A stretch of 43,051 bases of DNA from a virus: IMG/VR virus record IMGVR_UViG_3300007351_000582, positions 1-43,051 of that record, one strand, 5' to 3'. Shown piece after piece: positions 3,515 through 38,373 of this stretch; the stretch's first letter is position 1; each line of letters starts with the position of its first letter. Under the pieces are notes generated by a model. That model did not search any database. It saw only the letters and a list, made by a program, of their open reading frames with translations, and was not told the DNA's origin. The position numbers were made by a program, and so were the translations under genes.

Positions 3515-3534
3515 AGGCGTTACCTCCTGCCTAT
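3515..3534 (-). promoter_or_regulatory. Hairpin enclosing a ribosome site
   Basis: On the minus strand ATAGGC and GCCTAT pair around a loop that holds AGGAGGT, and the second arm runs up to the start codon of the HTH-zinc-finger gene. The fold could limit translation initiation or serve as a protein-binding dyad. The stem is only 6 bp, so this is tentative. Confidence 0.4.
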
Positions 3535-3564
3535 AACCGAAAAATCACTTGGATTCGAACCCCC
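3527..3564 (-). repeat. 38-base repeated intergenic element, copy A
   Basis: On the minus strand it reads GGGGGTTCGAATC, five variable bases (CAAGT), then GATTTTTCGG and TTATAGGCAG. The other copies are at 33908-33945 and 38336-38373, with identical length and spacing. This copy lies between the amidase stop and the HTH-zinc-finger gene, and its 3' end runs into that gene's ribosome site. It does not encode part of any supported protein. Confidence 0.85.
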
Positions 3565-3570
3565 ACAAAA

Positions 3571-3591
3571 CAGAAAAATTCCGCGAGGCGG
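3571..3591 (-). terminator. Weak intrinsic terminator after the lysis genes
   Basis: On the minus strand CCGC-CTC-GCGG is followed by AATTTTTCTGTTTTG. The 4-bp GC stem is short but the T-rich tail is clear. It would end the late transcript just after the amidase and before the integration operon. Confidence 0.4.
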
Positions 3592-3624
3592 CAATGAACC
3601 GTATCGAGGGATTATCCGTAGTCG

Positions 3625-4347
3625 CTATTCAGTTTTGATGAAAGCGTCAGTGAAGCCTGCCGCCTTAACCTTGGCGAGCATTGCGTCTGCGTTCGCTTTG
3701 ACCGAATACGCCCCGACCTGAACGCGGTAGAGCTTCTTCGGCTCGGTCGGCGTTTCGGGCTTGGGCGGCTCGCTTGCCGCGAGCAGTTTCTTGACCTCTG
3801 CTCGGAACGTATCCATCGACTTGCCGAACTTGGGAAACCAGTGCATCACATCACCGTGGTTGGAAGCGATGCCGAGTTTGTGGCCCTCGCTGTGGCAGAT
3901 GATGTTGGTTTCGTTAAGCCCGTACTGCTGGCAGAGGTAGGCGCAGAGTTCGGCGGCTTCCTTGTACACAGCGTTGAAATATGTGGAGTCGGTCAGCCCG
4001 TCCTCGCATATCTCAAAACTGATGTGCGTGTCGTTGCCGCTGCCCTTCGAGCCGGAGCCGCAATGCCAGCCCCTATGGTTCCACGGGAGCGTTTGGTAGG
4101 TGGCAATCGTGCCGTCAGCCAGCTTCCCGATGAAGCCGTGGACGCAGACTTGCCGTCCGTCCGGCTTGTCCTGATTCCAATGATTGCCGTACTGGTTCTT
4201 GCCCAGAAGCCCGTCGTCGGGTCCCACGTAGCGTTTCAGGTTCGGGTTGTTGGCGCCGGTCGAATGTACCATTATACCTTTCGGCGTGATGGTCTTGCCC
4301 GCTTTGTAGCAGGCGTTGTTGGTAAAGATAAGTTTGTGTAGATTCAT
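3625..4347 (-). CDS. N-acetylmuramoyl-L-alanine amidase (endolysin), 240 aa
   Basis: Endolysin that cuts the bond between muramic acid and the peptide stem. The Amidase_2 (PGRP-like) domain spans about 15-175. Candidate zinc or catalytic residues are His28 (in GIMVHSTG), His91 and His152 (in CHSEGH), with MHWFPKFG closing the domain. A proline-rich linker (about 192-205) leads to a short SPOR-like segment (LYRVQVGAYS, about 206-240) that should bind peptidoglycan. No signal peptide is seen, so export needs the holin. Its ATG overlaps the holin stop (ATGA) and has GGAGGTG upstream, so holin and lysin are co-translated. Confidence 0.93.
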   Translation of the reverse strand: MNLHKLIFTNNACYKAGKTITPKGIMVHSTGANNPNLKRYVGPDDGLLGKNQYGNHWNQDKPDGRQVCVHGFIGKLADGTIATYQTLPWNHRGWHCGSGSKGSGNDTHISFEICEDGLTDSTYFNAVYKEAAELCAYLCQQYGLNETNIICHSEGHKLGIASNHGDVMHWFPKFGKSMDTFRAEVKKLLAASEPPKPETPTEPKKLYRVQVGAYSVKANADAMLAKVKAAGFTDAFIKTE

Positions 4348-4760: not shown

Positions 4761-4794
4761 TTCCTTAAATCCTCCGTTCCGTTGTTTTTGCGTA

Positions 4795-4827
4795 TAAAAA
4801 GCGCGCCCGACGGATTTCAGGCGCGCC
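4795..4827 (-). terminator. Intrinsic terminator after the GH18 tail gene
   Basis: On the minus strand GCGCGCC pairs with GGCGCGC (4801-4807 with 4820-4826) around a 12-base loop, followed by TTTTTAT. It separates the tail genes from the holin-amidase pair, so lysis genes may depend on readthrough or on their own promoter, which I could not identify. Confidence 0.8.
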
Positions 4828-25186: not shown

Positions 25187-26435
25187 GCTCCGCCACCTCC
25201 TTCACGAGGTCGGCGTATTGGAGCGTTTCGCCGTTGCGTTCACAGACTATATCCGCACCGCCGTTTTGCTTGAACTCGGCATACCGGCGCAGGATTACGC
25301 TTGCGTACTTCTCGTCCAGTTCGAGCATATTGCAGATGCGGTCGGCTTGCTCACAGGCGATAAGGGTGGAACCCGAACCACCAAAGGTGTCAAGGACGAT
25401 GCCGTTTGCCTGACTGCTGTTCTTAATCGGGTATGCGAGCAGGTCAAGGGGCTTTGAAGTCGGGTGGTCGCTGTTGCGCTTGGGCTTGGCGAAGTTCCAT
25501 ATAGTGGCTTCGCTCCGTCCTGCGTACCATTTGTGCGTTCCCGTTTTGAGCCACCCATAGAGGATAGGCTCGTGCTGCCATTGGTATGGGCTTCTGCCCA
25601 TAACGAAGCTGTCTTTGACCCAAATGCAAGTACCGCTCAGGTGGAACCCCGCCTCGCGGAACGCCCTGCGGAAGTTTTCGCCCTCGGTGTCGGCGTGGAA
25701 GATATATGCTGAGCCGCCGCCTTCGAGGTTTTCGGCAAGGTTACGGAAAGACGAGAGCAGGAAGGCATAGAACTGCTCCGCCTTCATAGAGTCGTTCTTT
25801 ATTTTCAGCCCGCTCGAACCCTCAAAATTTACATTGTATGGCGGGTCGGTGAGGACGAGGTTCGCCTTGCGACCGTCCATCAGCTTCTTGACCGTGGCGG
25901 CATCGGTGGCGTCACCGCAAATGAGCCGGTGGCGACCGAGCGTCCAAATGTCGCCAGGCAAAACAAAAGCCGCCTGTTCAAGGGCGGCTGTAAGGTCGAA
26001 GTCATCGTCTTGTACGTCGCCAACATCGGCGGCAAACAGCTTCTCTATTTCCTTTTCGTCAAAGCCCGTCAACTCCAAGCCGAAGCCGAGGTCTTTAAGT
26101 TCGGCAAATTCCAGAGCGAGCAGTTCCTCATCCCATCCGGCGTTTAACGCCAGACGGTTATCGGCGAGGATATACGCACGTTTCTGCGCCTCGGTCAAAT
26201 GCTCCGCGAACACGCATGGCACTTTCGTCAGCCCTTCGGCTTTGGCGGCTTCCACACGCCCGTGACCCGCAATGATATTGTAGTCCTTGTCCACGATGAT
26301 GGGGTTGACGAAGCCAAACTCACGAAGGCTTGCGCGAAGCTGCAGAATCTGTTCCTTGCTGTGAGTTCGGGCATTGCGGACATACGGCACAAGGGCGTCG
26401 ATATTCACTTGTTCAAATCTGCTTGTAGCGTTCAT
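25179..26435 (-). CDS. ParB-domain DNA N-methylase, 418 aa
   Basis: Amino-methyltransferase fused to a ParB/Srx-like N-terminal domain. The ParB part (about 8-100) includes NARTHSKEQI and the AGHGRVEAA box (56-64). The methylase has the catalytic DPPY at 197-200 and the AdoMet-binding DTFGGSGST at 349-357, an order typical of beta-class enzymes that methylate adenine N6 or cytosine N4. The ParB domain may recruit it to particular sites. Likely acts with the adjacent C5 enzyme in phage DNA modification. Start at 26435; stop 3 bp before the small terminase end. Confidence 0.93.
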   Translation of the reverse strand: MNATSRFEQVNIDALVPYVRNARTHSKEQILQLRASLREFGFVNPIIVDKDYNIIAGHGRVEAAKAEGLTKVPCVFAEHLTEAQKRAYILADNRLALNAGWDEELLALEFAELKDLGFGLELTGFDEKEIEKLFAADVGDVQDDDFDLTAALEQAAFVLPGDIWTLGRHRLICGDATDAATVKKLMDGRKANLVLTDPPYNVNFEGSSGLKIKNDSMKAEQFYAFLLSSFRNLAENLEGGGSAYIFHADTEGENFRRAFREAGFHLSGTCIWVKDSFVMGRSPYQWQHEPILYGWLKTGTHKWYAGRSEATIWNFAKPKRNSDHPTSKPLDLLAYPIKNSSQANGIVLDTFGGSGSTLIACEQADRICNMLELDEKYASVILRRYAEFKQNGGADIVCERNGETLQYADLVKEVAERG

Positions 26436-26438
26436 ATC

Positions 26439-26936
26439 CTAAAACCCCCTGTTCATCAAAAGAGCGAGGAAGTCGTTTTTCTCCTCGCTCTGCGTGGTGC
26501 TGTACTTATTGATAATCTGCATAATCAGGTTGAAGTCGGCTTGCATCGCCTTGTAGTAACCCTGACCCGCCGTGACGTATGGCGAGAGTTTCAGTTCCTT
26601 GGTCATTCTCCCGATTTTGCGGTTCATGCACTCACAGGCAAGGAAGCCCTGCCTGTTCAGGACATAGTCGGTAATCGTCTGCGGAGCGACGAATCCCTCG
26701 CAGCCACGTGCCGCAATGTATTCCTCAATCTCGGCTCGAAGCACGTCCGCCGATGGAACTTCCTTCTCGCATTCCTTCATTGCCATTGAGAAGTAGTCCG
26801 CCATAACATTTTTAGAGTAAACCTTCTTTGGCGCAGTTACCGGCGCGGTCGGTTTGACCGGCTTGCCTTCCAGTTTCTTTTCGTTTATATTTTTCCGAGG
26901 GCGACCTGCCCCCGGACGATAGCCTCCGCTGGGCAT
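26439..26936 (-). CDS. Terminase small subunit (P27-like), 165 aa
   Basis: DNA-recognition subunit of the packaging motor. The basic N-terminus GYRPGAGRPRK is a hallmark of P27-type small terminases, followed by a linker and a helical core (EIEEYIAARGCEGF, YVLNRQGFLACE, SPYVTAGQGYYK). The start at 26936 has GAGGTG upstream. It is separated from the large subunit by five genes, which is less common than direct adjacency. The following HNH protein is transcriptionally upstream. Confidence 0.9.
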   Translation of the reverse strand: MPSGGYRPGAGRPRKNINEKKLEGKPVKPTAPVTAPKKVYSKNVMADYFSMAMKECEKEVPSADVLRAEIEEYIAARGCEGFVAPQTITDYVLNRQGFLACECMNRKIGRMTKELKLSPYVTAGQGYYKAMQADFNLIMQIINKYSTTQSEEKNDFLALLMNRGF

Positions 26937-27073
26937 AATCCATCACCTCGGTTTTGATTTTGATTGTTTGATATTTTGATTTTTGATTTTTGAAAAATTC
27001 ACGCGAAAGGCCGAGCGCGCTGCCCGCCTAAAAGGCGGTAGAGATGCTGACCGCCCCTCGGTCGATGTCATCC
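26937..27073. other. Short intergenic stretch with A/T repeats
   Basis: This 137-bp gap between the HNH gene and the small terminase has an imperfect repeated ATCAAAA unit on the minus strand (about 26950-27000) and no protein-coding signal. It may be a cos or pac region because of its position between the HNH and small terminase genes; no cohesive end or other proof is visible. Confidence 0.4.
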
Positions 27074-27424
27074 CTAAAAGTAATCGCCTTTCTCCGCGTG
27101 CAAACGGCTGTGGCATTCTTGGCAGAGAGCCTGTAAGTTGTTCCAGTCGTTGTTGCCGCCGTCGGTTAGCTTGCGCTTGTGGTGAACGAGTGTTGCGGGA
27201 ACGAGTCGTCCGTCGCTCCGGCACACCTCGCACAGCGGGTTCGCCGACAGGAACGCGGCTCTAATCCTGTTCCAACTCCTACCGTAGCGTTTGTTGGCGT
27301 CGGGGTCGCGGTCAATGTGGTTGTATCGCTTGGCTTCAGCCTTGGCGTGTTCCTCGCAGTACCGACCCGCGGTCAGCTTGGGGCAGCCGGGGTGGGCGCA
27401 GGGCTTCCTTGCTTTGTAGGGCAT
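27074..27424 (-). CDS. HNH endonuclease, 116 aa
   Basis: Small HNH nuclease that in related cos-packaging phages helps cut DNA with the terminase. The N-terminal zinc knuckle has CAHPGC and YCEEHA (about 8-26). The HNH core is CEVC (about 68-71), LVHHKRKLTDGGNNDW, NNLQALCQECHSRLH. The spacing of Cys and His residues is intact. It is the first packaging-operon gene, preceded by a promoter-terminator leader. Confidence 0.93.
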   Translation of the reverse strand: MPYKARKPCAHPGCPKLTAGRYCEEHAKAEAKRYNHIDRDPDANKRYGRSWNRIRAAFLSANPLCEVCRSDGRLVPATLVHHKRKLTDGGNNDWNNLQALCQECHSRLHAEKGDYF

Positions 27425-27452
27425 TCATCTTCACCGACCTTTCAGGGCATAG

Positions 27453-27483
27453 AAAAAGGACGCGCCCGCACGGGGAACGTCCT
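27453..27483 (-). terminator. Intrinsic terminator in the late leader
   Basis: On the minus strand AGGACG pairs with CGTCCT, an inner CCCG/CGGG extends the stem, and TTTTT follows. It lies 29 bp before the HNH start, so it would stop transcripts of the packaging and structural genes unless antiterminated. Confidence 0.75.
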
Positions 27484-27495
27484 CATTGTTTCGTC

Positions 27496-27501
27496 ATTAT
27501 A
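27496..27501 (-). promoter_or_regulatory. Consensus -10 box of a late promoter candidate
   Basis: The minus strand reads TATAAT here, a perfect -10 hexamer. No good -35 box lies 16-18 bases upstream, as expected for an activator-dependent promoter. The predicted start is about 6 bases before the terminator at 27453-27483. Confidence 0.45.
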
Positions 27502-27528
27502 GTTATAACATAAGAGCCGCGTGGCTTT

Positions 27529-27963
27529 CTATGGTCTGGAGTGGCGAATCGCGTCAACCTCGTTCAAAGCCCTGTTGTGTAGCCGATGCACCCATCGTAT
27601 GTCGAGGTGCAGTTCCACCGAAATCTCCTCCCAAGTGTTGAAGCAGAGGTAGCGGAGTTCCAATATGGTCTGGAGGTCGGGCGCTTCCACACACTTTATA
27701 ATCGTGACGATTTCGCGCTTAAGGTCGATGAGGGCTTGCAGGTCGGCGTTTATCTCCGACTCCAAGTCCATCGCCTTGGTGATGAATTCCTCCATACGGT
27801 GGTGGTTCGGGCTTGAGCTTCGCGGCATATCCGATAAAGTGGCGGTCGCTTTTGTCGCCAGTTCCCGAAGCGAATGCACCTGCTCCAGTTTGCTGTTTAT
27901 CCTCTGGTCGATGCGATAGGCTTGGGAGAGGTACTCCTTCGCCGTCATTTCTTGCGTGTTCAT
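27529..27963 (-). CDS. Sigma-r4/ArpU-like late regulator, 144 aa
   Basis: Helical protein resembling the DUF1492/ArpU-type regulators of clostridial and bacilli phages. The N-terminal two thirds form a coiled coil (EYLSQAYRIDQRIN, RMEEFITKAMDLESE). The C-terminus is sigma-70 region 4-like (LRYLCFNTWEEISVELHLDIRWVHRLHNRAL). Members of this type switch on late genes. It sits just before the late promoter-terminator leader, which fits. GGAGGG lies 7 bases before the ATG at 27963. Confidence 0.82.
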   Translation of the reverse strand: MNTQEMTAKEYLSQAYRIDQRINSKLEQVHSLRELATKATATLSDMPRSSSPNHHRMEEFITKAMDLESEINADLQALIDLKREIVTIIKCVEAPDLQTILELRYLCFNTWEEISVELHLDIRWVHRLHNRALNEVDAIRHSRP

Positions 27964-28026
27964 AGGCTTGCCCTCCGATACAGTGATGGCTTCCCTCGGA
28001 TTGGCAGCTTTTGACTTCTGCGATTG

Positions 28027-29385
28027 TCATAGGTTTGCTTTCACCGCGTCGATTAGGGCGGTCTGCGTCCTGTCTTTTTCAGACAGGGCTTTTAAGACCC
28101 GCTCGTCAATCGTTTCTTTGGCGGTGATGTGGTGGATGACCACCGTTTGGGATTGCTGACCCTGCCGCCACAAGCGGGCGTTGGTCTGTTGATAGAGTTC
28201 CAGACTCCATGTCAGCCCGAACCATATAATCGTGTTGCCTCCCGCTTGCAGGTTCAGCCCGTGGCCTGCCGAAGCGGGGTGGATGAGCGCCACGGGCAAC
28301 TCGCCGTTGTTCCATCGAGCGATACTCTCGCTCGTATCCATCTTGGAAAATGGGATATGCTTTTGCTTAAGCCTCGCGGCAATCCGCTCCAAGTCGTGCT
28401 TGAACCAATAGGCGACCAGAACGGGTTTTCCGTTGGCGGCTTCGATTAAGTCCTCCAAAGCGTCAAGTTTGCGGTCGTGGATGTGCCGGACATCGCCGTT
28501 ATCATCGTAGACCGCGCCGTTCGCCATCTGGCACAGCTTGTTTGACAGGGCAGCGGCATTGGCGGCGGTCACTTCGCCGTCGGCAAGCTGAAGCACCAAA
28601 TCCCTCTTCATATCGTCGTACCGTTCCCGTTCATCGTTCGACATCCGCACTGGGTACTCGGCGGTCACCAGTTCCGGCATCTTCAGGTGGTCGGTGGACT
28701 TCATCGAAATGGTAATGTCGGCGATTTTGGCGTATATCCGCTTCTCAGCGTCAGGCAAAGGCTTATAGCTGAAGATGACCTGACCATTTCGCTTGTCGGG
28801 GACAAAGTAGTCCGTGCGATACTGCCCGATGAACCGCCCAAGCCGCTGACCCATATCCAGAAGCCGAAACTCCGCCCACAAGTCCATCAAGCCGTTGCTC
28901 GATGGCGTTCCCGTCAGCCCTACGATGCGCTTGACCTTCGGGCGGGCTTTCATCAGCGACCGGAACCGTTTTGACTGGTGGCTCTTGAACGACGACAACT
29001 CGTCGACCACCACGGTGTCGAAGTCTAAAGGCAGGCCGCTTTCCTCGATGAGCCATTGCACGTTCTCACGGTTGATGATGTAGATGTCGGCGGCTTTCCG
29101 CAGGGCGGCTTTTCGCTCCGCTTCCGTGCCGACCGCCACGGAGAACCGCAAGTCGGAGAGGTGTTCCCATTTCCGCAGTTCCTCCGGCCAAGTGTCGCGG
29201 GCAACGCGGAGAGGCGCGATGACCAGAACGCGGTGGGCTTCGAAGCTGTCAAACAGCAGGTCGTTTATAGCGGTCAGCGTTATCGCCGTCTTGCCAAGCC
29301 CCATGTCGAGCAGCAGGCAGGAAACGGGGTTCGCCTCGATGAACGCCGTGGCGTATTCCTGATAGCTATGCGGTTGATATTTCAG
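28027..29385 (-). CDS. SNF2-type helicase/ATPase, 452 aa
   Basis: Superfamily 2 translocase, probably for replication or recombination. Motif I is LLLDMGLGKT (24-33), motif II VVVDELS (125-131), motif III IVGLTGTPSSN, and motifs V-VI are HPASAGHGLNLQAGG and QTNARLWRQGQ. It lacks a long accessory domain. No ATG is in a suitable place. A CTG at 29385 has GGAGGT 7 bases upstream and gives a protein starting KYQPHSYQEYA, like family members that start MKY; an upstream TTG at 29400 has no ribosome site. I therefore propose a CTG start. It overlaps the VRR-NUC gene by 20 bp. Confidence 0.9.
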   Translation of the reverse strand: MKYQPHSYQEYATAFIEANPVSCLLLDMGLGKTAITLTAINDLLFDSFEAHRVLVIAPLRVARDTWPEELRKWEHLSDLRFSVAVGTEAERKAALRKAADIYIINRENVQWLIEESGLPLDFDTVVVDELSSFKSHQSKRFRSLMKARPKVKRIVGLTGTPSSNGLMDLWAEFRLLDMGQRLGRFIGQYRTDYFVPDKRNGQVIFSYKPLPDAEKRIYAKIADITISMKSTDHLKMPELVTAEYPVRMSNDERERYDDMKRDLVLQLADGEVTAANAAALSNKLCQMANGAVYDDNGDVRHIHDRKLDALEDLIEAANGKPVLVAYWFKHDLERIAARLKQKHIPFSKMDTSESIARWNNGELPVALIHPASAGHGLNLQAGGNTIIWFGLTWSLELYQQTNARLWRQGQQSQTVVIHHITAKETIDERVLKALSEKDRTQTALIDAVKANL

Positions 29386-29647
29386 GAAGCACACCTCCAA
29401 TCTGTCCCGCGTCGTCCAAGACGTAGACCTTGTAGCCCAGCCGCTGTAACATCCCGTGCCTTGCTTCCTGCAACGGGCGGGGCTTCTCGCCGCGCCGTTT
29501 CACTTCTACGAAGCCGCACTTCCCGTCGGGCAGAAGCACAAGGCGGTCGGGCATTCCGTCGAAACCGGGGCTTACGAACTTGGGCGCGATACCTCCCGTC
29601 GCCTTGACCGCCTCCGTGAGCTTGCGCTCCAATGTTTTCTCTCGCAT
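29366..29647 (-). CDS. VRR-NUC domain nuclease, 93 aa
   Basis: Minimal VRR-NUC (PD-(D/E)XK-like) nuclease of 93 residues. The conserved sequence PGFDGMPDRLVLLP (about 27-40) supplies the acidic residues, and CGFVEVKRRGE (about 44-54) the ExK. Related phage proteins may resolve branched DNA. The start has GGAGG 5 bases upstream. It lies between the candidate origin region and the SNF2 helicase, so it belongs to the replication operon. Confidence 0.92.
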   Translation of the reverse strand: MREKTLERKLTEAVKATGGIAPKFVSPGFDGMPDRLVLLPDGKCGFVEVKRRGEKPRPLQEARHGMLQRLGYKVYVLDDAGQIGGVLPEISTA

Positions 29648-29878
29648 AGTGACCTCCGCTTTTCACATTGCCCAACTTGCCGATTCTGCCTATAATTCCT
29701 ACGCGGGCGTATTGCGTATGCCCATTATCCTTATTACTACTTAAATAAGATTTAGTAAGGTGAACATCGGCAATATGGGCAATGGCTGTGTAAGAACCGT
29801 GATTTATTCGGGGCTTGCGACTTTGCCGATAACGGTTGCCGAAGCCCCGACTGGCAATCACGGGCAATCGTCCCGCGC
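29648..29878. other. Candidate replication origin between VirE and VRR-NUC genes
   Basis: A 231-bp gap with no supported gene. It has 19-base inverted arms at 29666-29684 and 29766-29784 (17 of 19 matching), each containing ATTGCCC followed by TTGCCG. A third related unit (ATTGCCCGTGATTGCC on the minus strand) is at 29853-29868. The spacer holds an AT-rich stretch (29724-29759). Two nested 8-bp perfect stems lie at 29797-29804 with 29856-29863, and 29809-29816 with 29842-29849. Iterons, AT-rich core and stem-loops next to the primase-helicase gene fit an origin. No experimental proof. Confidence 0.55.
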
Positions 29879-32206
29879 TCATTCAGACCTCACGAACACG
29901 CGCTGGACGCCGTACATCGGGACTGCCTTCTTGCCGGTCTTGTTGCCCTCGTACTTAGCCCAGCCGCCTATCTGGTTGAGGATACCCTCAATCTCGTAGG
30001 AGTCGGCTTTCTTGATGGACTCGCGGGACTTCCCGAAGCACTCGCACCAAATCTCCATCACGCAGACCTGATTGCGCCGCACGGTGCCTTTTGTCCTCGT
30101 GGGGTCGTCGGTCGAGCGGATGTATTCCAAACGCCTGTAAATATCCATCGTGTCCCAGTTGTCAGGGAGCAGGGCTTCAAGGTACTCCGCCACCAAGCCC
30201 TCGCGGTCGTCGTTCTCCATAGCGTCCCGCTGTTCGGCGAAAGCCGCTAATGCGATGTCGCCTTTGAGGAACAGTTCTTCGCCCTCGGTGTACTTAACAA
30301 GGGCTTCCGCCCAAATCTGGTCAATCTCCGTAAGTTCCCAAGCGCGGTATTTGCCTTCGCCCGATACCCGCACAGGCCAGAAGCGGCGGTTGCCCGTGAT
30401 GTCCCGAAGGAAGCCGCCGTCGGAGTTGGTCGTGCCGACGATGACGCATTGGCGCGGGTGGCTCTCAACGGCGCGTCCGTAAGACGGGCGGTACTTGTCA
30501 TCGGTGCGGGTGATGAACGACTTCACGGTCTCAACGTCCATCTTCTTGATGCCCGCCAACTCGCCAAGTTCGAGAATCCAGTAGCCCTGTAGCTTCTCCG
30601 GCGCGGTCTTGTCCTTCATATCCGATATGGAGAGGCTGTCGGAGTACCATTGCCGTCCGAGCCGTGAGAACAGCGTGGATTTGCCGATGCCCTGTTTGCC
30701 GTTTAGCACAAGGATTGAGTCGTGCTTTGCGCCGGGGTTCAGGATTCGGGCGACCGCCGCAACGAGCGTCTTTCGGGTGACGGCTCTGGTGTAAGGCGAG
30801 TTCTCCGCGCCGAGGTAGTCGATGAGCAGCGTGTCCATTCGGGGAACCCTGTCCCAAGGCGGCAGACTGTTCAGGTACTCCCTTATCGGGTGATAGGCGC
30901 GGTCGTCCGCGACCTTGGTCAGCGCCAGTTCGTAATTCCTCGCCGAGAACGTGCCGTAGCGTTTGTCGATATAAGCCACAAGCTGTGCGGTGTCGGCATC
31001 GCGCCAAGGCGGGTGCGGACGTTCCCACGGGAGGTTTTCGCCGTATATCTGGTTCGCCAGTTTGTTGTAGCGGATGCCGCCGATGGCATCGTCGTTGTTC
31101 AGAATAAGGAGCAGGTTGCCGAGCGTATTGGCGAGGACGCCGCTTTTCTCCCTTTGGAGCCGCGACATCCAATCGTCGCCCTCGGCAAACTCCGTCTCAG
31201 CGGCGGCGATGCGCTCTTCGGCAATCAGCGCGTTGACTTTTTCGTCTTTCAAGGCAAACTCGCTCATCGCTTTGAAGCCCGCCTTGTCGTCAAGGTCGGC
31301 AAATTTGTGGATGCGGACGAGGTCAAAAGCGTTCAGCAACTTGCCGCAGGCGGGGTCGGTGGCGTGGTGGGAGTAAGCCCACTTGCCTTCGTACAGCACC
31401 ACGCCCGCGCTGCTGTCGGCTGGGATATAGTCGTAGCGGCCAGTAATCGCAGATGGTTCATAAACATCGGGCAGGAACGCCGCGATTGCGTCCTCGATGC
31501 CGTAAGCCCGGCAAAACGCCCCGACCACGCCGTCTTTTTCGAGCGGGTCTTGCTGCTGCCGGATACTGCGTTGTATCACCTCGGACTGGCGGCTTGATGT
31601 CGGCCAAAGCGAGCAGTCGCGCCAGTCGGACAGCTTTGCGAGGTATTCGTCGGGGTCGAGTTCGCTGCCGTCGATGGCCTTGAACACATACTCCCCGTCG
31701 GAGGGCGTGGACGGCCAGTACATCAGGCGTTCCGGCTCGTAGGTCGAATCGTCAAAGAAATCCATCCCTATTTCGTCTGCCACAAGCCGTGAAAGCGCAG
31801 CATATTCGTCCGGCGTAACGTCGCGGGAGAGTGGAATAACCACGCGGAGTCTTGGGGCTTCCGGCGTGTGGCTGTGGGTGGAGTAAATGGCGCACTTATG
31901 CGGGAACAACATCTCCACGCTGTCGATGAAGCCGCCGTCGGCATGGTCGGCGTCAAGCGTAATCCCCGAACGGCTCTCGACCGTGTCCTTCTTGCGCCGT
32001 CCCGACTTTAGGTGACCGAGGACATATCCGCCCACGTCTTTGGCGGCGTCGCGGCGGTCTTTCGTAAACTTCCGGTACTCGGCGACCGTCTCGGTGGTGC
32101 GGCGGGTGACATTGAACCGCTCGCACAACTTTTCAAAGGTGGTCTTTTTGTTGACCCACCGTTTCGACAGGCGGCTGTCGCCGTAGGATATTTTCAGGTC
32201 TCGCAT
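29879..32206 (-). CDS. VirE/VapE-type primase-helicase, 775 aa
   Basis: Replication initiator combining primase and helicase parts. The N-terminal half resembles an archaeo-eukaryotic primase fold: ITLDADHADGG with Asp85 and Asp87, YSTHSHTPEAPRLRVVIPLS with His111/His113, and a following helical region. The C-terminal half is VirE/SF3-like, with Walker A GKQGIGKS at 503-510, WILELGELAGIKK acidic box, and TTNSDGGFLRDITGNRRFWPV near the sensor region. I chose ATG 32206 with AGGAGG 10 bases upstream; the longer frame to 32317 overlaps another gene. Located just before the candidate origin. Confidence 0.93.
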   Translation of the reverse strand: MRDLKISYGDSRLSKRWVNKKTTFEKLCERFNVTRRTTETVAEYRKFTKDRRDAAKDVGGYVLGHLKSGRRKKDTVESRSGITLDADHADGGFIDSVEMLFPHKCAIYSTHSHTPEAPRLRVVIPLSRDVTPDEYAALSRLVADEIGMDFFDDSTYEPERLMYWPSTPSDGEYVFKAIDGSELDPDEYLAKLSDWRDCSLWPTSSRQSEVIQRSIRQQQDPLEKDGVVGAFCRAYGIEDAIAAFLPDVYEPSAITGRYDYIPADSSAGVVLYEGKWAYSHHATDPACGKLLNAFDLVRIHKFADLDDKAGFKAMSEFALKDEKVNALIAEERIAAAETEFAEGDDWMSRLQREKSGVLANTLGNLLLILNNDDAIGGIRYNKLANQIYGENLPWERPHPPWRDADTAQLVAYIDKRYGTFSARNYELALTKVADDRAYHPIREYLNSLPPWDRVPRMDTLLIDYLGAENSPYTRAVTRKTLVAAVARILNPGAKHDSILVLNGKQGIGKSTLFSRLGRQWYSDSLSISDMKDKTAPEKLQGYWILELGELAGIKKMDVETVKSFITRTDDKYRPSYGRAVESHPRQCVIVGTTNSDGGFLRDITGNRRFWPVRVSGEGKYRAWELTEIDQIWAEALVKYTEGEELFLKGDIALAAFAEQRDAMENDDREGLVAEYLEALLPDNWDTMDIYRRLEYIRSTDDPTRTKGTVRRNQVCVMEIWCECFGKSRESIKKADSYEIEGILNQIGGWAKYEGNKTGKKAVPMYGVQRVFVRSE

Positions 32207-32418
32207 TCCGCCGTTTCCTCCTCTACATATTTGCCCCGCGCCCAAATCAGGAAATTGCCCCGGCAGGTCGTGTCGTACTTGTTGCAGGTCTTGCCGAAAG
32301 CCGGGCAGCCGCCGCAAGCCAGCACGACAAAGTGGTGGTTGGCGATAAATTCGGGCGTGAGGGTTTCTTTCCAGACATCGAAGTTGGTCTTTATGGGCTT
32401 GGTTTGTTTAGATGCCAT
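32194..32418 (-). CDS. Cys-rich small protein, 74 aa
   Basis: Unknown small protein. After a basic N-terminus (ASKQTKPIK) it has HHFVVLACGGCPAFGKTC, and a further CRGNFLIW, a set of four to five cysteines suggesting metal binding or a disulfide. No family recognised. AGGAGGT is 8 bases before the ATG at 32418. It overlaps the VirE start by 13 bp and its neighbour by 11 bp, so it is translated with the replication genes. Confidence 0.6.
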   Translation of the reverse strand: MASKQTKPIKTNFDVWKETLTPEFIANHHFVVLACGGCPAFGKTCNKYDTTCRGNFLIWARGKYVEEETAECET

Positions 32419-32830
32419 TGCCGGACACCTCCTCACATTTGCTGTTGAAAAATCGGATGGGCATATTGCGCTTCCGAGCCTTGGCGATTTCGCGGTTCAT
32501 ACCCTCGGAGGGTAAGCCGAAAGCCCATAACTCGTCGCATTTGCCAAGCAGGATGAGGGCGAATCGAAGCCCCAGCTCACGCTGGCTTCGGTCGCCATCG
32601 TCCATAAACTGCGGGTAGTGCAGGTGCGGCGCAAGGGGAATGCACCCCCTGCTGACCGCAAACCTGCAATAGCCCCGCCCCCGCTCGATGTTACGTTCCG
32701 TGTCGCCCGCGAAAGGCGAAGCGATGTAAACGAGCGGGAAGTACTGCTTCGCCTTTTCCTCACGGGCGACCGCCGTCAGAGCATTGTAGGCGGTCGGGTC
32801 GGGATAGCCTTCACTGTTGTATCTGTCCAT
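32408..32830 (-). CDS. DUF4406/nucleoside deoxyribosyltransferase-like protein, 140 aa
   Basis: Alpha-beta protein of the nucleoside 2-deoxyribosyltransferase-like (DUF4406/DUF7768) group. The pattern VYIASPFAGDTERNIERG (about 33-50), APHLHYPQFMDD (about 66-77), and CDELWAFGLPSEGMNREI (about 97-114) matches that family. It may metabolise or sense nucleotides, but catalytic residues are not proven. GGCGATG precedes the start at 32830. It overlaps both neighbours. Confidence 0.82.
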   Translation of the reverse strand: MDRYNSEGYPDPTAYNALTAVAREEKAKQYFPLVYIASPFAGDTERNIERGRGYCRFAVSRGCIPLAPHLHYPQFMDDGDRSQRELGLRFALILLGKCDELWAFGLPSEGMNREIAKARKRNMPIRFFNSKCEEVSGNGI

Positions 32831-33089
32831 CGCCGACCTCCCTGATTAGCGAACGGAGCCATTCAATCTCGTCGGTAAGACGGGCATACTCCGATTCGTA
32901 CATTGCGTTCTCGGCTTCGAGCGCGGAGATTTGGTTCGTCAGTTCCGCCTTTTCGTTTGCGTGGAGAAGCGGGAGGGAAAGGATACAGAACAGCCAGATT
33001 GCCAACCATATCCACGGGAGCGCAGACCATATCGCCTTGCCGACCTTCTTCAGAACCGATTTAACGGCTTGTTTCTTTTCACTCGTCAT
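32811..33089 (-). CDS. Membrane-anchored coiled-coil protein, 92 aa
   Basis: Unknown small protein. A basic N-terminus is followed by one hydrophobic segment at about 20-43 (WSALPWIWLAIWLFCILSLPLL), then a heptad-patterned coiled coil at about 47-85 (LTNQISALEAENAMYESEYARL). This is the architecture of a membrane-anchored dimer. Similar proteins in prophages have been proposed as superinfection-exclusion or replication-membrane factors, but there is no direct clue here. It overlaps the antirepressor end by 11 bp. Confidence 0.6.
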   Translation of the reverse strand: MTSEKKQAVKSVLKKVGKAIWSALPWIWLAIWLFCILSLPLLHANEKAELTNQISALEAENAMYESEYARLTDEIEWLRSLIREVGDGQIQQ

Positions 33090-33861
33090 TGCCGGTTACC
33101 CCTTTCCCAAGGAACAGATTGATGAAGTATTGCTGCCCCTTGCCTGTAACCTTTGTGGTCTTACTGATGGTGACGTGACCGTCGGAGTGCGTGATGGCGG
33201 TCTCCTTGACACGGAATAGCCCCAGTTCCATCGCCCTCTGCGTCGGAGCGTTGTAGTCTGTGCCTTGCCGCTTGATGAGGTAGCCGTCCTGACGCAGTTT
33301 CTCGAACAGGCGGTTCTGCCCGATTTCGATGCCGTTGCCCTTGAGGATTTTCGCCAACTCGCCGATGAGGATGGTTCCGTCCGAAACAGATACGGCGTCG
33401 GCAAACACGACCTTCGGCTCGTTCTTGGCGGCTTCCAGTTGGAGGTGTTCCTTGGCGGCGCGCTCGTCTTTGAGGGCGGTCAGCACCTTAATCCAAGCGT
33501 CGGGGTCGTTCATCATCTCTTCCAGCTTGGCGGGCGTAACATACGCGCCGTGCTTGCGGATGGTCGGAAGCACCTCGTGGGTAACCCAGCGTTTGAACTT
33601 CTTTGCTTCGGGTTTGCGGGACAAAAGGATGGTGCTATACAGCCCGCTCTCGCTGATGACCGTGAGTTCCTGTTTCCCGCCAAGGGTGTCGATAATATCG
33701 ACGCCCTTTTCGTCGTCATCCAAACGAGCGGTAACGTCGCGGCTGTTGCCGATTTCGAGGATGTCGCATACATCCTTCAGCACCCACCACGGCTCGCCGC
33801 CCCTCTGGATTGTCCTGACCTCGTTCCCCTCGTAGGAGAACACTTGCATTTCGTTGTTCAT
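33079..33861 (-). CDS. Phage antirepressor (Bro-N plus KilAC), 260 aa
   Basis: Likely antirepressor-type DNA-binding protein. The Bro-N domain spans about 4-110 (EVRTIQRGGEPWWVLKDVCDILE, ISESGLYSTILLSRKPEAKKFKRWV). The KilAC domain is about 160-250 (ILIGELAKILKGNGIEIGQNRLFEKLRQDGYL). I chose ATG 33861 with GGAGG 7 bases upstream. A longer in-frame start at 33954 would translate a repeated intergenic element and is unlikely. Copy B of the 38-base element and an 11-bp inverted repeat lie just upstream. Confidence 0.92.
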   Translation of the reverse strand: MNNEMQVFSYEGNEVRTIQRGGEPWWVLKDVCDILEIGNSRDVTARLDDDEKGVDIIDTLGGKQELTVISESGLYSTILLSRKPEAKKFKRWVTHEVLPTIRKHGAYVTPAKLEEMMNDPDAWIKVLTALKDERAAKEHLQLEAAKNEPKVVFADAVSVSDGTILIGELAKILKGNGIEIGQNRLFEKLRQDGYLIKRQGTDYNAPTQRAMELGLFRVKETAITHSDGHVTISKTTKVTGKGQQYFINLFLGKGVTGNDE

Positions 33862-33880
33862 ATTCGAACCTCCGTAAAAT

Positions 33881-33928
33881 GGATTTTTCGGAGTCAGCGA
33901 ACTGCTCCTGTCCATAACCGAAAAATCC
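33881..33928 (-). other. 11-bp perfect inverted repeat upstream of the antirepressor
   Basis: GGATTTTTCGG (33881-33891) and CCGAAAAATCC (33918-33928) pair perfectly around a 26-base loop. One arm is part of repeat copy B. It would place the gap between DNA polymerase and antirepressor genes in a stem-loop, and could be a regulatory or processing site. Confidence 0.7.
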
Positions 33929-33945
33929 AAGCGATTCGAACCCCC
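33908..33945 (-). repeat. 38-base repeated intergenic element, copy B
   Basis: On the minus strand GGGGGTTCGAATC, variable GCTTG, then GATTTTTCGG and TTATGGACAG. It begins 5 bases after the DNA polymerase stop codon and lies before the antirepressor. It matches copy A except for two bases outside the variable pentamer. Confidence 0.85.
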
Positions 33946-33950
33946 TGTAC

Positions 33951-35945
33951 TCAATCTTTTTTATAAAATGGGCAATCGTAGCCATCGGCACGGAGCAGAA
34001 GCCCCTCCGCCCAAGGCGGGGTGCGGCTCATTTGTTCGCAGAGAACCTTGGTAGACATACGCTTGTCGGCTTCGATGACCATTTCGTCGTGTACGTGCAT
34101 CACAATGTCGCAGCACCGTTGCGCCTGCATTGCGTAGCAGAGAATGTCGCGGCTCGTAGCCTGCACGATGTTTTCCACGAACTTGGGTCCGTAGCTTTCG
34201 AGCCGTTCCCACTTTTTCGTGCCGCCAACTCCCTCGTAAGTCACGCAGTCCGAGCCGAACTGGTTAGCGCCGATGCGCGGCTTCACATAGGCGAGCCGCC
34301 GTCCCGACGGCAATGTAATAAAGAGCATTGCGCTCTGAACGCCGAAGCGGATGCCGTGGGCTTCGGTGACCGTCCTGTCCCTGACCGCTGTCATTGCCGC
34401 TTTGTCCACGTCCCACCAGAGCCTAACGATGTTCGGGTTGGAAGCCCGCCACGCCGTCACCAGTGGTTGCAATTCGTCCTCCTGCAAACCCATCTCCAAC
34501 GCGCCCATTGCTTTGAGCGCGCCGACCGAGCCGCCGTAGCCGAGGGCGAGTTCCGCAATCTTGCCTTTTTGCCGCAGGGGTGAGCCTTTGGTGACTTCCT
34601 CAATCGGGACGTGGAACATCTGGCTTGCCGAAGCCTCGTATATTTTGCCGTGGGTGGCAAACACATCGTTGCGCCACCGCTCCCCGGCAAGCCACGCGAT
34701 GACGCGGGCTTCGATTGCCGAGAAGTCGGCCACGACAAACTTCGTGCCGGGCTTCGGGATAAACGCCGTGCGAATGAGTTCCGACAGTACCTCCGGCACG
34801 GAATCATAAAGAAGTTCCAAAGCGTTAAAGTCGCCGCTACGCACCAAAGCCCGCGCCTGTTCGAGGTCGGGCAGATGGTTCTGCGGGAGGTTCTGCATCT
34901 GAATCAAGCGGCCAGCCCACCTACCGGTTCGGTTAGCGCCATAAAACTGGAACATCCCGCGAGCGCGACCGTCGGCGCAGACAGCGTTCTCCATCGCCTG
35001 ATACTTCTTGACCGAGGATTTCGCTAACTGCTGTCGCAGTGACAAAGCCCGACTGAGCGGCTCAGGAGCCGTTTTCAGCAATTCTGCGACCGCTTTCTTA
35101 CCGAGCGTATCGGTTTCCAAACCGTGGTCGGCAAGCCATTGCTTCATCTGAGCCACGGAGTTCGGGTTGTCAAGTTCCGTGATTTTCTTCATCAGGCGGG
35201 TGAGTTCGGCCTTAGAGCGGGCGTCGGCGGCGATGGCGTTCCTGACGAGCGTCATATCAACCATCACGCCACGGTCGTTGATTTCTTGGTCGAGTGCGTA
35301 CTCGTCCCAGACGGATTCAGGCACGGGAAATTTTGAGAGACGCTCCTGAATGGACATTTCCGCTTCCACGTCGCGGCGGTTATACGCCTTGAAAGCCGCC
35401 CACTTGTCGGGAGAGTGGTCAGGAAGATTGCGGGTGCGCTGGCCATTGGCGGCGGTCGCCTCGCACGGCTTGCAGAAATAGCGGATGAGTTCCTTGCCCT
35501 CGGTCAGCTTCTGCTTTTCCAATCCCAAAACCGCGCCCGCGCCTTCAAGCGAAAGCGGCAGTCCCATATAGGCTGACCAGACCATACTGCACCGCCACGA
35601 TTCTGGGTTCAGGTATTTCGCCTTGCCGAGGTATTGGGAAGAAAAGTGATTGTCGGCGAATGGGTCAAGGGATATGCCCATATCAGATAGGTAGCGGGAA
35701 AGGCATACCCGCTCGAAGTTGGCGTTAAACGCCCATTTCTGCACGTCGTCATCCGTAAGTGCGTCGATGATTTCATTTGGAAGCATTTCGCCCGCCGTTA
35801 AGTCCACGACTTGCACCTCGCCGCCGTCCACGGAGTACCCAAACAGCAAAATCTCAAAGTCCGGCGATTCGGCATAGCGATAAACACCAGACTTTGCGAG
35901 GTCGACAGACGAGAAAGTTTCAATATCTATGCTGATAGTTTTCAT
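33951..35945 (-). CDS. Family A DNA polymerase, 664 aa
   Basis: Phage replicative polymerase of the Pol I type. The N-terminal 3'-5' exonuclease has the DxE motif in SIDIETFSS (Asp7, Glu9), and NANFERVCLSRYL. Polymerase motif A is FVVADFSAIEARVIAWL (about 403-420, catalytic Asp407), motif B KGSPLRQKGKIAELALGYGG, and motif C MHVHDEMVIE (about 613-622). There is no 5'-3' exonuclease domain. I chose ATG 35945 behind GGAGGG; a longer frame start at 35963 is less likely. It is the centre of the replication operon. Confidence 0.95.
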   Translation of the reverse strand: MKTISIDIETFSSVDLAKSGVYRYAESPDFEILLFGYSVDGGEVQVVDLTAGEMLPNEIIDALTDDDVQKWAFNANFERVCLSRYLSDMGISLDPFADNHFSSQYLGKAKYLNPESWRCSMVWSAYMGLPLSLEGAGAVLGLEKQKLTEGKELIRYFCKPCEATAANGQRTRNLPDHSPDKWAAFKAYNRRDVEAEMSIQERLSKFPVPESVWDEYALDQEINDRGVMVDMTLVRNAIAADARSKAELTRLMKKITELDNPNSVAQMKQWLADHGLETDTLGKKAVAELLKTAPEPLSRALSLRQQLAKSSVKKYQAMENAVCADGRARGMFQFYGANRTGRWAGRLIQMQNLPQNHLPDLEQARALVRSGDFNALELLYDSVPEVLSELIRTAFIPKPGTKFVVADFSAIEARVIAWLAGERWRNDVFATHGKIYEASASQMFHVPIEEVTKGSPLRQKGKIAELALGYGGSVGALKAMGALEMGLQEDELQPLVTAWRASNPNIVRLWWDVDKAAMTAVRDRTVTEAHGIRFGVQSAMLFITLPSGRRLAYVKPRIGANQFGSDCVTYEGVGGTKKWERLESYGPKFVENIVQATSRDILCYAMQAQRCCDIVMHVHDEMVIEADKRMSTKVLCEQMSRTPPWAEGLLLRADGYDCPFYKKD

Positions 35946-35963
35946 AAGCCCTCCATAACGCAA

Positions 35964-35991
35964 GAGGGCGGCAAGTTTCCCCGCCGCCCTC
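35964..35991 (-). other. 9-bp GC-rich hairpin between DUF2815 and polymerase genes
   Basis: GAGGGCGGC and GCCGCCCTC pair perfectly around a 10-base loop. On the minus strand it is followed by TTGCGTTATGG, not a T-tract, so it may attenuate or protect RNA rather than terminate. It lies 18 bp before the polymerase start. Confidence 0.65.
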
Positions 35992-36011
35992 CGCAGACTG
36001 TGTAATCGTGG

Positions 36012-36602
36012 TTAGCTGAGGAAGTCTTCATCGTCGTCAGTGGCAAAGTCGTCCTCGGCTCTGGGTTTGCCGCCGAGCGGGTCGCCGTCGCGCAGTTTCT
36101 GGATGTTGTTCAGCCCGCAGGCGATGCCCTTGTTGCCGTTGCTGTTGAAAGCGTAGAAGTTCACGCTGGCGCGGGCGTACACGCCGCTGTAAATCTGCGA
36201 GCGTTCGAAGATGGTCTCGCAGGCGCTGTCCACGATGCCGGGCGCCGTGCCGCTGTTGGCGTTGACGAAGTAGCTGTCGGCATAGGCTTCGTCGTCGGGG
36301 CGGTCGATGTCGCCGTCACGGAGCGGGGTCTTGAGGGAAGCGAGCGGCGGGACGGTCTTGCCGTTGCCTTTCAGCTTGGTCTCGCCTTCGCGGTACGCCG
36401 CCTCAATCGCCGCCTTAATCTTGGCGATGGTGCGGGTATCCGACTTCGGGATGATGATGCTGACCGAGTATTTCGGCGCGCCGCCGTTGATGGACTTCGA
36501 CTCCCACAGATTGGCGTAGGAGAGCCTGACTTCGCCCGTGATGACCTTCGTGGGGTTCGGGGCGGGGTTCGGGTTATTGCGGTTCATTGTCTGATTAGCC
36601 AT
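36012..36602 (-). CDS. DUF2815 (putative ssDNA-binding) protein, 196 aa
   Basis: Member of the DUF2815 family found beside DUF2800 nucleases in phage replication modules and suspected of binding single-stranded DNA. Beta-strand-rich core VITGEVRLSYANLWESKSIN (about 19-39), YSVSIIIPKSD, and SGVYARASVNFYAFN (about 140-155). The C-terminal tail is very acidic (DDFATDDDEDF), as in many ssDNA-binding proteins. GGAGGT is 8 bases before the ATG. Its start overlaps the nuclease gene by 8 bp. Confidence 0.85.
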   Translation of the reverse strand: MANQTMNRNNPNPAPNPTKVITGEVRLSYANLWESKSINGGAPKYSVSIIIPKSDTRTIAKIKAAIEAAYREGETKLKGNGKTVPPLASLKTPLRDGDIDRPDDEAYADSYFVNANSGTAPGIVDSACETIFERSQIYSGVYARASVNFYAFNSNGNKGIACGLNNIQKLRDGDPLGGKPRAEDDFATDDDEDFLS

Positions 36603-37728
36603 TGTCTTTTACCTCCATAAAATCGTTTTTGGCTGTGTTGATTGCCGGACGTTTGTCTCCCTCCGGCACGAGCGTTGGTTTGCCTTGTGGTTTTTCGACC
36701 AGACCGCCGAGCAGTTCGGCGAACCGGGCTTTTCCAAGAGCCTTTTCCATTGCGGTGATGCCCATCACCTTACGTTCGTAGGGGTCGTAGCCAGCGGACT
36801 TCACTGTCTGTGCGACCGCTTCCTCATTGACGTATTTGCGGTTGCTCTTGCCCTCGACGACCTTCCAGCCGAACCACCGCTTCCCGCCGAGTGCGGCTTG
36901 CAGTGCGTAGTCCTTGATGTCGGAAGCCCAAGACACGAGGTCGTCGATTTTGCCGAGTATGGATTCGATTTCGTCGTCCTCCAACAGTGGCGGGCGTTTG
37001 AATTCGAGCCTTGAGAGTTCCATATTCCGCTCGGCGCGTTTGCGGCACTCGTGCTTCGCCTTGCAGAACTGGCACCATTCGCCGCAGTTGTACTCGCCGC
37101 CGCCTGCGTAGGCAATTTCGGCGATGGGCTTCAAGACTTCCTCAGCCCACTGGTAGAGCGACTCCTTGAAAACCGTGTGGGTACTGACATTGTCGCGGCG
37201 GGGCTGGTAGATAGTCATACTGACCTCGTCAATGTCGTAGATTCCGTCGAACAACTCCAAAGCGCCCAAGGCGTACAGCTTCATCTGCGGGTTGTCGGTC
37301 GCCTGAACGAGTACCCCTTGCCCATGCTTGTAATCGCAAATGTGCAATGTGCCGTCAGCGATAATCACGCAGTCGCCCGTGCCGAAGCTTCCCTCCACGT
37401 ACTTGGAGAAGTCGAGCCGCTGCTCTATCAGCACCACGGGGTCGGCGCAGGTCTGCTTCGCCGTCTCCACCAGTTCGAGGATGTAGGCGGCGTAGCCGTT
37501 GGCGCACTCGTCCATTTCCTCGGAGTAGTAGGTCAGGTTGGCGGTCGGGTCTTTCGCCTTGATGCCGAGCGCGGATTTCAGCTTGTATTCGCCAAGGGTG
37601 TGCGCGTCCGTGCCTTCGGCGGCGTAGTCGCTGCCTTTGTCCTCGTATTGTTCGCAGAGCCTTGCCGAGGGCGGGCAGTTGAGCCACCTATGGCTTGAGG
37701 AAGCCGAGAGGAGCGCGTGTTTACCCAT
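36595..37728 (-). CDS. DUF2800 RecB-like nuclease, 377 aa
   Basis: PD-(D/E)XK-type nuclease with an iron-sulfur-like C-terminal Cys set. The core motif includes GDCVIIADGTLHICDYKHGQGVLV (about 121-144), with Asp and the Lys of DYK in the active site. CGEWCQFCKAKHEC (about 221-234) likely binds a [4Fe-4S] cluster, as in AddB and Cas4 nucleases. I chose ATG 37728 (GGGAGGG upstream, start GKHALLSASSSHRWLNCPPS). The 37995 frame start would overlap another gene extensively. It belongs to the recombination/replication module. Confidence 0.88.
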   Translation of the reverse strand: MGKHALLSASSSHRWLNCPPSARLCEQYEDKGSDYAAEGTDAHTLGEYKLKSALGIKAKDPTANLTYYSEEMDECANGYAAYILELVETAKQTCADPVVLIEQRLDFSKYVEGSFGTGDCVIIADGTLHICDYKHGQGVLVQATDNPQMKLYALGALELFDGIYDIDEVSMTIYQPRRDNVSTHTVFKESLYQWAEEVLKPIAEIAYAGGGEYNCGEWCQFCKAKHECRKRAERNMELSRLEFKRPPLLEDDEIESILGKIDDLVSWASDIKDYALQAALGGKRWFGWKVVEGKSNRKYVNEEAVAQTVKSAGYDPYERKVMGITAMEKALGKARFAELLGGLVEKPQGKPTLVPEGDKRPAINTAKNDFMEVKDNG

Positions 37729-38095
37729 CTTCGCCCTCCCCAAGCCCGATACTGGCGGCTTCCCCAAGCAGGGCTTCAAACTCCGACGGGTCAATCTCCG
37801 ACAGCTTCGCCGCGCCGTGCTTCTGGAGCAGTTCACGAACCTCGGCGGTGTGTCCGCTGCGGGACTTTTCCGCGAGTACGGCTCGCACCTGCTCCAACGT
37901 GACGGGCTTCGGCTTCGGGGTGGTTGCTCCGACAACGATTTGCTTGTTGTCGTTGCCGGTCTGGGTAAAGACGTAAGATTCCGTCTTGCCTCCACCGCTG
38001 AACAACGCCGTCAGGCTGTCCGCGACCGCCGTCAGCGACTGCGCCGCTTCCCGCAGTTCTCCGATGCAGATGTCGAGTTCACTCATCTTGCTCAT
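37721..38095 (-). CDS. Small phage protein, 124 aa
   Basis: Unknown protein usually found in this position in clostridial prophages. N-terminal helix (LDICIGELREAAQSLTAVADSLTALF), then a linker and a C-terminal helical hairpin (TLEQVRAVLAEKSRSGHTAEVRELLQKHG and SEIDPSEFEALLGEA). No enzymatic motif. I chose ATG 38095 with GGAGGT 7 bases upstream; a GTG at 38104 has the site inside it. It overlaps the next gene's stop by 17 bp. Confidence 0.65.
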   Translation of the reverse strand: MSKMSELDICIGELREAAQSLTAVADSLTALFSGGGKTESYVFTQTGNDNKQIVVGATTPKPKPVTLEQVRAVLAEKSRSGHTAEVRELLQKHGAAKLSEIDPSEFEALLGEAASIGLGEGEDG

Positions 38096-38294
38096 TGCGT
38101 TCACCTCCTCGAAGTTCCTTGATTTCCACGGTTTCCACCGTCTCGCCGGGTGTCACGACGATAACGCCGACCTTGTCGCCGAAAAGCAAACTGAGCAGCT
38201 TACTCCTCAACGTGCGCGACCCGCCTTTCAGAACTGCCGTCCTGCCGCCGTCGGGGCGGGTCACGCAGATACTTACCTTGTGCTTCAGGTTCAT
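38079..38294 (-). CDS. Small phage protein, 71 aa
   Basis: Unknown small protein. Basic N-terminus (KHKVSICVTRPDGGRTAVLKGGSR) and a likely beta strand (KVGVIVVTPGETVETVEIKEL). GGAAGGAGG precedes the ATG, which is 42 bases from copy C of the repeated element. It is the first gene after the sigma-like gene. Confidence 0.6.
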   Translation of the reverse strand: MNLKHKVSICVTRPDGGRTAVLKGGSRTLRSKLLSLLFGDKVGVIVVTPGETVETVEIKELRGGERNEQDE

Positions 38295-38335
38295 TGGCTC
38301 TTTGCCTCCTTCCAGAGGTTGCTTTATCGCGTCCT

Positions 38336-38373
38336 CTGTCCATAAGCGAAAAAGCCGCCCGATTCGAACCCCC
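38336..38373 (-). repeat. 38-base repeated intergenic element, copy C
   Basis: On the minus strand GGGGGTTCGAATC, variable GGGCG, then GCTTTTTCGC and TTATGGACAG. It starts one base after the sigma-like gene's stop codon. It differs from copy B at two bases outside the variable pentamer. Confidence 0.85.

Follow-up and report, generated by a model that had tools for sequence, protein, structure and literature searches.

What is the function of a short sequence that recurs three times, between genes and always in the same orientation, in one phage genome? The window analysed here, a virus record of 43,051 bases (IMG/VR record IMGVR_UViG_3300007351_000582, referred to as G000), carries a 38-nt element at positions 3527-3564 (copy A), 33908-33945 (copy B) and 38336-38373 (copy C), all on the minus strand. 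A sequence-only reading of this DNA had listed three possible roles, namely a phage-specific promoter, an RNA processing or T-loop element, and a protein-binding site. The first of these is best supported by comparison with related phages: the element is probably a phage-specific promoter that is present in three copies and read by the phage's own sigma-like protein.

The element and its counterparts in related phages

Every copy lies after the stop codon of one gene and before the start codon of the next, as had been described, with distances from the stop to GGTTCGA of 63 nt (A), 8 nt (B) and 4 nt (C). The pattern has three matches in the window and 0 in 100 dinucleotide shuffles, the comparison that had been proposed for chance matches, which excludes chance as their origin. 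By direct reading, two positions outside the variable five distinguish copy A from copy B, and two distinguish B from C; TTCGAA and TTATRG are separated by 17 nt in all three copies. The fixed spacing claimed for the element holds within it, but not between copies, which are 30,381 and 4,428 nt apart. Similarly, exactly five variable bases are found among the window's three copies, but not across 15 distinct copies of the window type, in which free variation is confined to three positions and about five more show partial conservation (consensus GGGGGTTCGAatc...c.GaTTTTTCGcTTAT.G.caGgaG). The limits of block 1 and of the core were taken from this 15-copy consensus and place block 1 (GGGGGTTCGA) at 3555-3564 and the core (GATTTTTCGGTTAT) at 3533-3546 in copy A, block 1 at 33936-33945 and the core (GATTTTTCGGTTAT) at 33914-33927 in copy B, and block 1 at 38364-38373 and the core (GCTTTTTCGCTTAT) at 38342-38355 in copy C. 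The arrangement expected of a phage-specific promoter class, a pair of blocks at constant spacing ahead of several genes, is present.

The window-type element also occurs in other phage records, so that the absence from all relatives considered by the sequence-only reading does not apply, though the related phage PV036457 is without it. Exact scans of IMG/VR first found it in two other records, and a looser pattern extended this to ten stretches. Record G002 is a prophage of a Clostridiales metagenome-assembled genome (Firm_11) with copies A, B and C, whose order and context match those of the window, and record G010 has three copies, the context of two of which was read. The Firm_11 genome (3.4 Mb) contains six copies, compared with 0 matches to a reversed control pattern; by context, all six lie in or at phage regions, five of them in two prophages and the sixth at locus L192, with an endolysin-like gene upstream and the same helix-turn-helix (HTH) gene as at site A downstream.

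Different elements occupy the same junctions in other lineages. For PV036457 (Candidatus Heliusvirales), megablast covers 51% of window positions 26000-43000 at 76% identity; no window-type element was found in this phage, and its three equivalent gaps hold an element of the form GTACGCAA..CCCCTC..CTGTCTGTAG.C.GTAGAGGGG, a pattern matched by 14 IMG/VR stretches. With polA as bait, 80 IMG/VR and 80 genome loci were fetched, 155 of which were used (all except L070, L153, L154, L155 and L159), many of these loci being duplicates in which a prophage is present in two collections. Of the 129 loci with sufficient flank, 71 have an element common to the gap after polA (site B) and a same-strand position 2.2-3.1 kb upstream of it, while controls at the same score gave 2 reverse-strand and 0 polA-internal matches. 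The type of element varies between lineages, yet is common to B and C within a locus, and a common plan can be recognized: a block of 7-10 nt, a spacer of fixed length and free sequence, and a core. Sorted by eye, the elements fall into type S1 (TACTCAA, TACGCAA or TTGCCAA; core TGTCC), type S2 (CGTTCAA, CGTCCAA, CGGCCAA and others; core TCCA(G/T)T), type S3 (TCCTCAA, CACGCAA or GTCCGA; core GTGGCT) and type S4, the window type. Prophages of Alkalibacterium thalassium and Anaerocolumna sedimenticola are among those with type S1. Some loci, for example L080, L096 and L160, have no element after polA. PV036412, whose sigma-like protein has another helix, carries a new element, GGGGTAAAA..TTTGCCTGT, at C, at B and between the endolysin gene and the next gene.

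The spacer is 12 nt long at 49 forward sites of type S1 (any other length at most 2) and 14 nt long in type S2 (31 compared with at most 2 at other lengths), peaks that arise partly by construction since the motif pairs were drawn from elements already seen; in type S4 it measures 10 nt. Independently of this construction, a scan of five whole genomes for the 12-nt spacer gave 8 matches (in four of the five) and an 11-nt spacer none, and two of these 8 matches lie 33-36 kb from C, which is the position of A. In 27 S1 copies, the block has a mean information of 1.57 bits and the core one of 1.48, compared with 0.42 for the spacer. As judged from these alignments, a spacer of free sequence and fixed length is the behaviour of a two-part protein-binding site on DNA.

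A sigma-region-4-like protein that varies together with block 1

The proposed reader of the element is a sigma-region-4-like protein of 161 amino acids, encoded directly upstream of copy C (38375-38860, minus strand). It matches a PHROG sigma factor family (1.3e-5) and TIGR02937 (6e-6, below the NCBIfam cut-off), both matches being confined to its C-terminal half. A profile search of the PDB returned 66 sequences at E <= 0.01 (best 1.1e-8; profile positions 63-150), mostly sigma factors and LuxR-type HTH proteins. The AlphaFold model is confident only for approximately residues 111-160, the N-terminal half remaining below a pLDDT (predicted local distance difference test) of 65, and Foldseek gave no match at E <= 0.001, its partial matches including isolated sigma regions 4. 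Region 4, the -35-binding HTH of the Sigma-70 family, is thus recognizable in this protein. With a six-seed profile, 123 of the 155 loci were found to have a gene of this kind at a distance of 1.5-4.5 kb upstream of polA (L185 being a doubtful member), and in most of those listed the end of the gene adjoins the C element; in nine loci of Clostridium or Bacillus type, which belong to the S3 group, the C element is embedded in its last codons. The gene is also present in seven of the nine records with a window-type element, the remaining two measuring 25 kb and 7 kb. Wherever the phage records searched annotate the protein, it is called 'hypothetical protein'.

The sequence-only reading had hinted that sigma-like proteins bind the element; this hint finds support in the co-variation of the upstream neighbour of C with the element across phages, binding itself being presumed. 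Of the 123 loci, 99 could be labelled with a block (for 14, the label came from the B gap alone) and 24 could not. After removal of redundancy, 70 rows including the window remained, from which the misaligned L086 was dropped to leave 69 non-redundant loci. With the rest of the domain held constant, similarity in the nine-residue recognition helix correlates with similarity in block 1 (partial Mantel 0.43, 0 of 1000 permutations, in which labels were shuffled without a model of the tree), compared with a partial Mantel value of 0.13 in the converse test, which keeps the helix constant and compares block 1 with the remainder of the domain. When only neighbours less than 50% identical are considered, the nearest helix predicts the block within one mismatch in 36 of the 69 loci and the nearest rest-of-domain in 16. 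Seven pairs share a block despite less than 40% identity elsewhere and have a helix identity of 0.67-0.89, while pairs with three or more block differences have a mean helix identity of 0.16-0.19. Convergence can be seen in the helix SQKA(I/V)NKRK, which accompanies TACTCAA or TACTTAA in proteins about 37% identical elsewhere, and in RNTFVYKR, which accompanies CGGCCAA in proteins 31-39% identical elsewhere; in a small set (L060, L098 and L160), GACCA blocks go together with a tryptophan in the helix. Between sites, 54 of the 123 loci have a pair of B and C blocks within two mismatches (49 identical), and the other 69 yielded no such pair, the usual reason being that in one gap none of the listed blocks was recognized. 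A phage examined later, PV036453, carries a sigma-like protein 46% identical to that of the window, with the helix ETAIRNRL, and shows what this helix would lead one to expect: GGGGGTTCGA at C and GGGGGTTCGG at B in window-type geometry, with no A copy found within the gaps inspected. On the available alignments, the recognition helix co-varies with block 1 beyond relatedness, with exceptions.

Weighing the promoter reading against its alternatives

In the proposed mechanism, the sigma-like gene would be expressed, presumably early after induction or infection, and the C-terminal sigma-region-4 domain of its product (38375-38860) would bind block 1 (GGGGGTTCGA) as a -35-type element, with the core (GATTTTTCGsTTAT) spanning the -10 region. 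RNA polymerase would then initiate at C to transcribe the recombination and replication genes, at B to transcribe the antirepressor and following genes, and at A to transcribe the HTH protein and the recombinases, each lineage using its own spelling, with protein and sites changing together. The repeated element with its fixed plan and its places, and the co-variation of block 1 with the recognition helix, are observed; from them we infer the binding, the transcription that it causes, where transcripts start, in which order the modules are expressed and what reads the core. The two blocks lie at -35 and -10 distances from the presumed start of the leader. A terminator precedes the element at five of seven A sites (by scan in L004, L200 and L201, by folding in L012 and L197), and the next module therefore needs a fresh start. 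A consensus sigma-A promoter (TTGACA-N16-18-TATAAT-like) was sought at six A sites and found at none, and was rejected as an explanation of the element. In L192, two divergent, predicted start codons have only about 70 nt between them, and the element takes up this space.

Several observations weigh against this interpretation. Region 2 was not detected with Pfam, PHROGs, NCBIfam or the PDB profile, and the N-terminal half is modelled at low confidence; since the core is also unlike TATAAT, -10 reading and melting are left unexplained. No clear terminator is seen at the A site of the window itself or at that of L192, and at copy A the Shine-Dalgarno sequence follows immediately after the core, which would make for a very short leader. 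Some types can form an RNA hairpin between the spacer and the end of the core, with matching changes, a feature that a promoter does not need. The co-variation itself has weak points: the block labels come from hand-made patterns, drawn by eye with protein and DNA viewed together, and the seven key same-block pairs represent only two block types. TACGCAA accompanies two helices (SSRSITVHV and.KSVNKRK), L064 has CGGCCAA at C and GTACGAT at B, and elements of two different types share one B gap in L181, L184 and L044.

A variant in which the sigma-like protein acts as an activator on block 1 while the host sigma-A reads the core, as with T4 MotA, is a tentative possibility. It is in keeping with region 4 being the only recognizable region of the protein, but the core is far from TATAAT and the six A sites mentioned above offer no consensus promoter. 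N-terminal protein classes also accompany spacer and core classes, which speaks against an activator, although each class is also one lineage, so that this apparent association is a lead only. The core-finding rule behind the comparison misplaces the core in several rows (for example L037, L163, L176, L179, L092 and L096). The activator reading is a version of the promoter explanation rather than its opposite, and the protein may itself be a sigma factor whose N-terminal part is unusual, or it may act as an activator together with the host sigma-A.

Readings based on RNA fit worse than the promoter reading. The resemblance of GGTTCGAA to a tRNA T-loop, which had been raised as a possible function, is not supported as such, in that relatives carry quite different blocks in its place at the same sites. 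The accompanying remark that the flanks cannot form a T-stem is borne out, the 3' side around TTCGAAT mismatching the G run in the window's three copies, and ARAGORN predicts no tRNA gene in the window; a tRNA or T-loop element was rejected on these grounds. The only intra-element helix that can be drawn, CGAAUC/GAUUUUUCG, is broken in TTCGATTC, TTCGAAAA and TTCGAACA without a matching change. It is also unlikely that the element is a structured RNA acting in cis at the start of each module to carry RNA polymerase past terminators, as HK022 put and Tn916 canT do. Such an RNA would agree with the constant placement of the element on the strand of the downstream gene, with the terminators present at A sites and with the in-step changes in the flanks of a strong hairpin in the PV036457 type (GAG/CTC, GCA/TGC, ATG/CAT, CCG/CGG), but one flank of that type is unpaired (L017) and the element lies past the A terminator, not ahead of it. 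No co-varying multi-pair helix was found in 29 S1 or 23 S2 sequences, where one isolated S2 pair was the only signal; the spacer is fixed in length and free in sequence, and block 1 tracks a DNA-reading helix. Rfam has no family at gathering score on the element, the single such match being a group II intron elsewhere, and the four weak matches of a further scan are at chance level and either lie elsewhere or carry no meaning. Tn916 does have an antiterminator RNA directly after regulatory genes, the roughly 400-nt cis-acting canT that serves terminator-containing operons (PMC11658703); this length is required, compared with the 38 nt of the element, and an identity with canT was rejected given the differences in size and nature. 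Neither a 38-nt three-copy element nor a coupling to a protein helix is known for canT. Outer complementary arms occur at some B sites (GGATTTTTCGG/CCGAAAAATCC at the window's B), but are absent at the B sites of L193 and L199, and RNA structure was rejected as the main explanation, column covariation revealing no common helix.

Alternatively, the three sites could be operators to which a phage repressor or other regulator binds in order to silence or group the modules, as at immunity sites or stoperators. Three sites with a lineage-specific spelling that changes together would suit such a system, and a repressor-like gene with an ImmA-like peptidase is present at 39360-40563. The site is, however, two-part and asymmetric with a -35/-10-like geometry, and the co-varying protein, the one that was typed, is sigma-region-4-like, making an operator a poor candidate that likewise fits worse than the promoter reading and is judged unlikely.

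Leader hairpins were predicted directly past two of the window's copies: GGAG..CTCC past copy B (33890-33908, minus strand; fold z = -1.2), which has stronger counterparts at B sites of this kind in two relatives (z -2.3 and -2.4), and CAGAGG..CCTCTG past copy C (38313-38338, minus strand; z = -3.9). Among the 15 window-type copies, a downstream leader hairpin with z <= -2 follows seven of the ten B or C copies and none of the five A copies. At copy B, the core contains an ATG whose frame is open into the antirepressor gene (33856-33916, minus strand), as was also seen by eye in L028 and L109; this may be due to chance.

Known systems, neighbouring genes and further observations

Phage and mobile-element sigma factors are known to direct RNA polymerase to a private class of promoters (PMC9429907, PMC6751061). 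SPO1 gp28/gp34, T4 gp55 and SigN of the phage-like plasmid pBS32 resemble the present case in combining the element's own sigma-type protein with private promoters. The phages studied here would differ in that region 2 is undetected, that three sites per genome lie at fixed junctions and that the function is predicted; moreover, the sequence of block 1 differs widely from one relative to another, in step with the recognition helix. In the activation of T4 middle promoters by MotA/AsiA, a phage protein takes over the contact with the -35 region (PMC11598898). The likeness is a phage protein at the -35 contact, whereas in the present phages the helix is part of a sigma-region-4 domain. MotA itself is not known to be a sigma region 4. 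PBSX Xpf and RinA/ArpU are sigma-like or HTH phage activators in Firmicutes that act on late or packaging promoters, while the junctions described here belong to replication, antirepressor and integration modules. A phage factor of sigma type with promoters of its own is a known kind of system. Within the searches made, no description was found of the family, of the layout with three junctions or of the coupled variation, and such an element is missing from the titles and abstracts of the open-licence literature covered.

If the promoter reading is true, a widespread group of temperate phages would use one shared switch, open to naming and testing, for its replication, antirepressor and integration modules. 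The co-variation of proteins and sites across many phages would offer a natural experiment in how particular residues of sigma region 4 select particular -35 bases, and the set of proteins and sites would be a source of promoter pairs that do not cross-react. A broader and rather doubtful hypothesis holds that temperate phages of Firmicutes harbour a large family of minimal sigma-type factors, composed of region 4 and a small N-terminal module other than region 2, which read both -35 and -10 and have radiated into lineage-private spellings at the same three junctions, creating a promoter-level identity tag, with tandem sites of two spellings enabling a phage to answer another phage's factor as well. 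The two-type B gaps combine CGGCCAA followed by CGTCAAA (L181 and L184) or GTCCGAT followed by TACTCAA (L044), and look as if the phage also answered the factor of another lineage. Several S1 loci have tandem elements at C, 65-72 nt apart; in L047, L052, L061, L065, L067, L121 and L142, these same-type tandems stand upstream of recombination genes and have a strong hairpin in the spacer and core of the first element, not the second.

The genes downstream of the copies are those named in the sequence-only reading. Copy A is situated between the endolysin gene (3625-4347) and the HTH protein gene (3113-3514; phrog_2308), past which a SHOCT protein and then two large serine recombinases are encoded (1-3146). 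Copy B separates a polA-type DNA polymerase gene (33951-35963; Pfam DNA_pol_A, 4e-21) from an antirepressor gene with Bro-N and ANT domains (33079-33858). Downstream of copy C, the gene for a small protein of unknown function (38079-38294; phrog_7234) is the first of the recombination and replication run. All of these single genes are on the minus strand. After polA in L105, the HTH gene usual after A is located at B, with an element in front of it.

In L107, L110 and L113, the polA relatives are 82-90% identical although the contigs were binned as Desulfobulbaceae, Parabacteroides and a Micrarchaeota archaeon, and these archaeal and bacterial bins are likely binning errors. The group II intron match lies at 27462-27558 of L007, beside an annotated reverse transcriptase in PV036457. 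An HsdM-type N6 DNA methylase gene on the plus strand of the window (41024-43051), opposite to the phage genes, reaches the end of the record.

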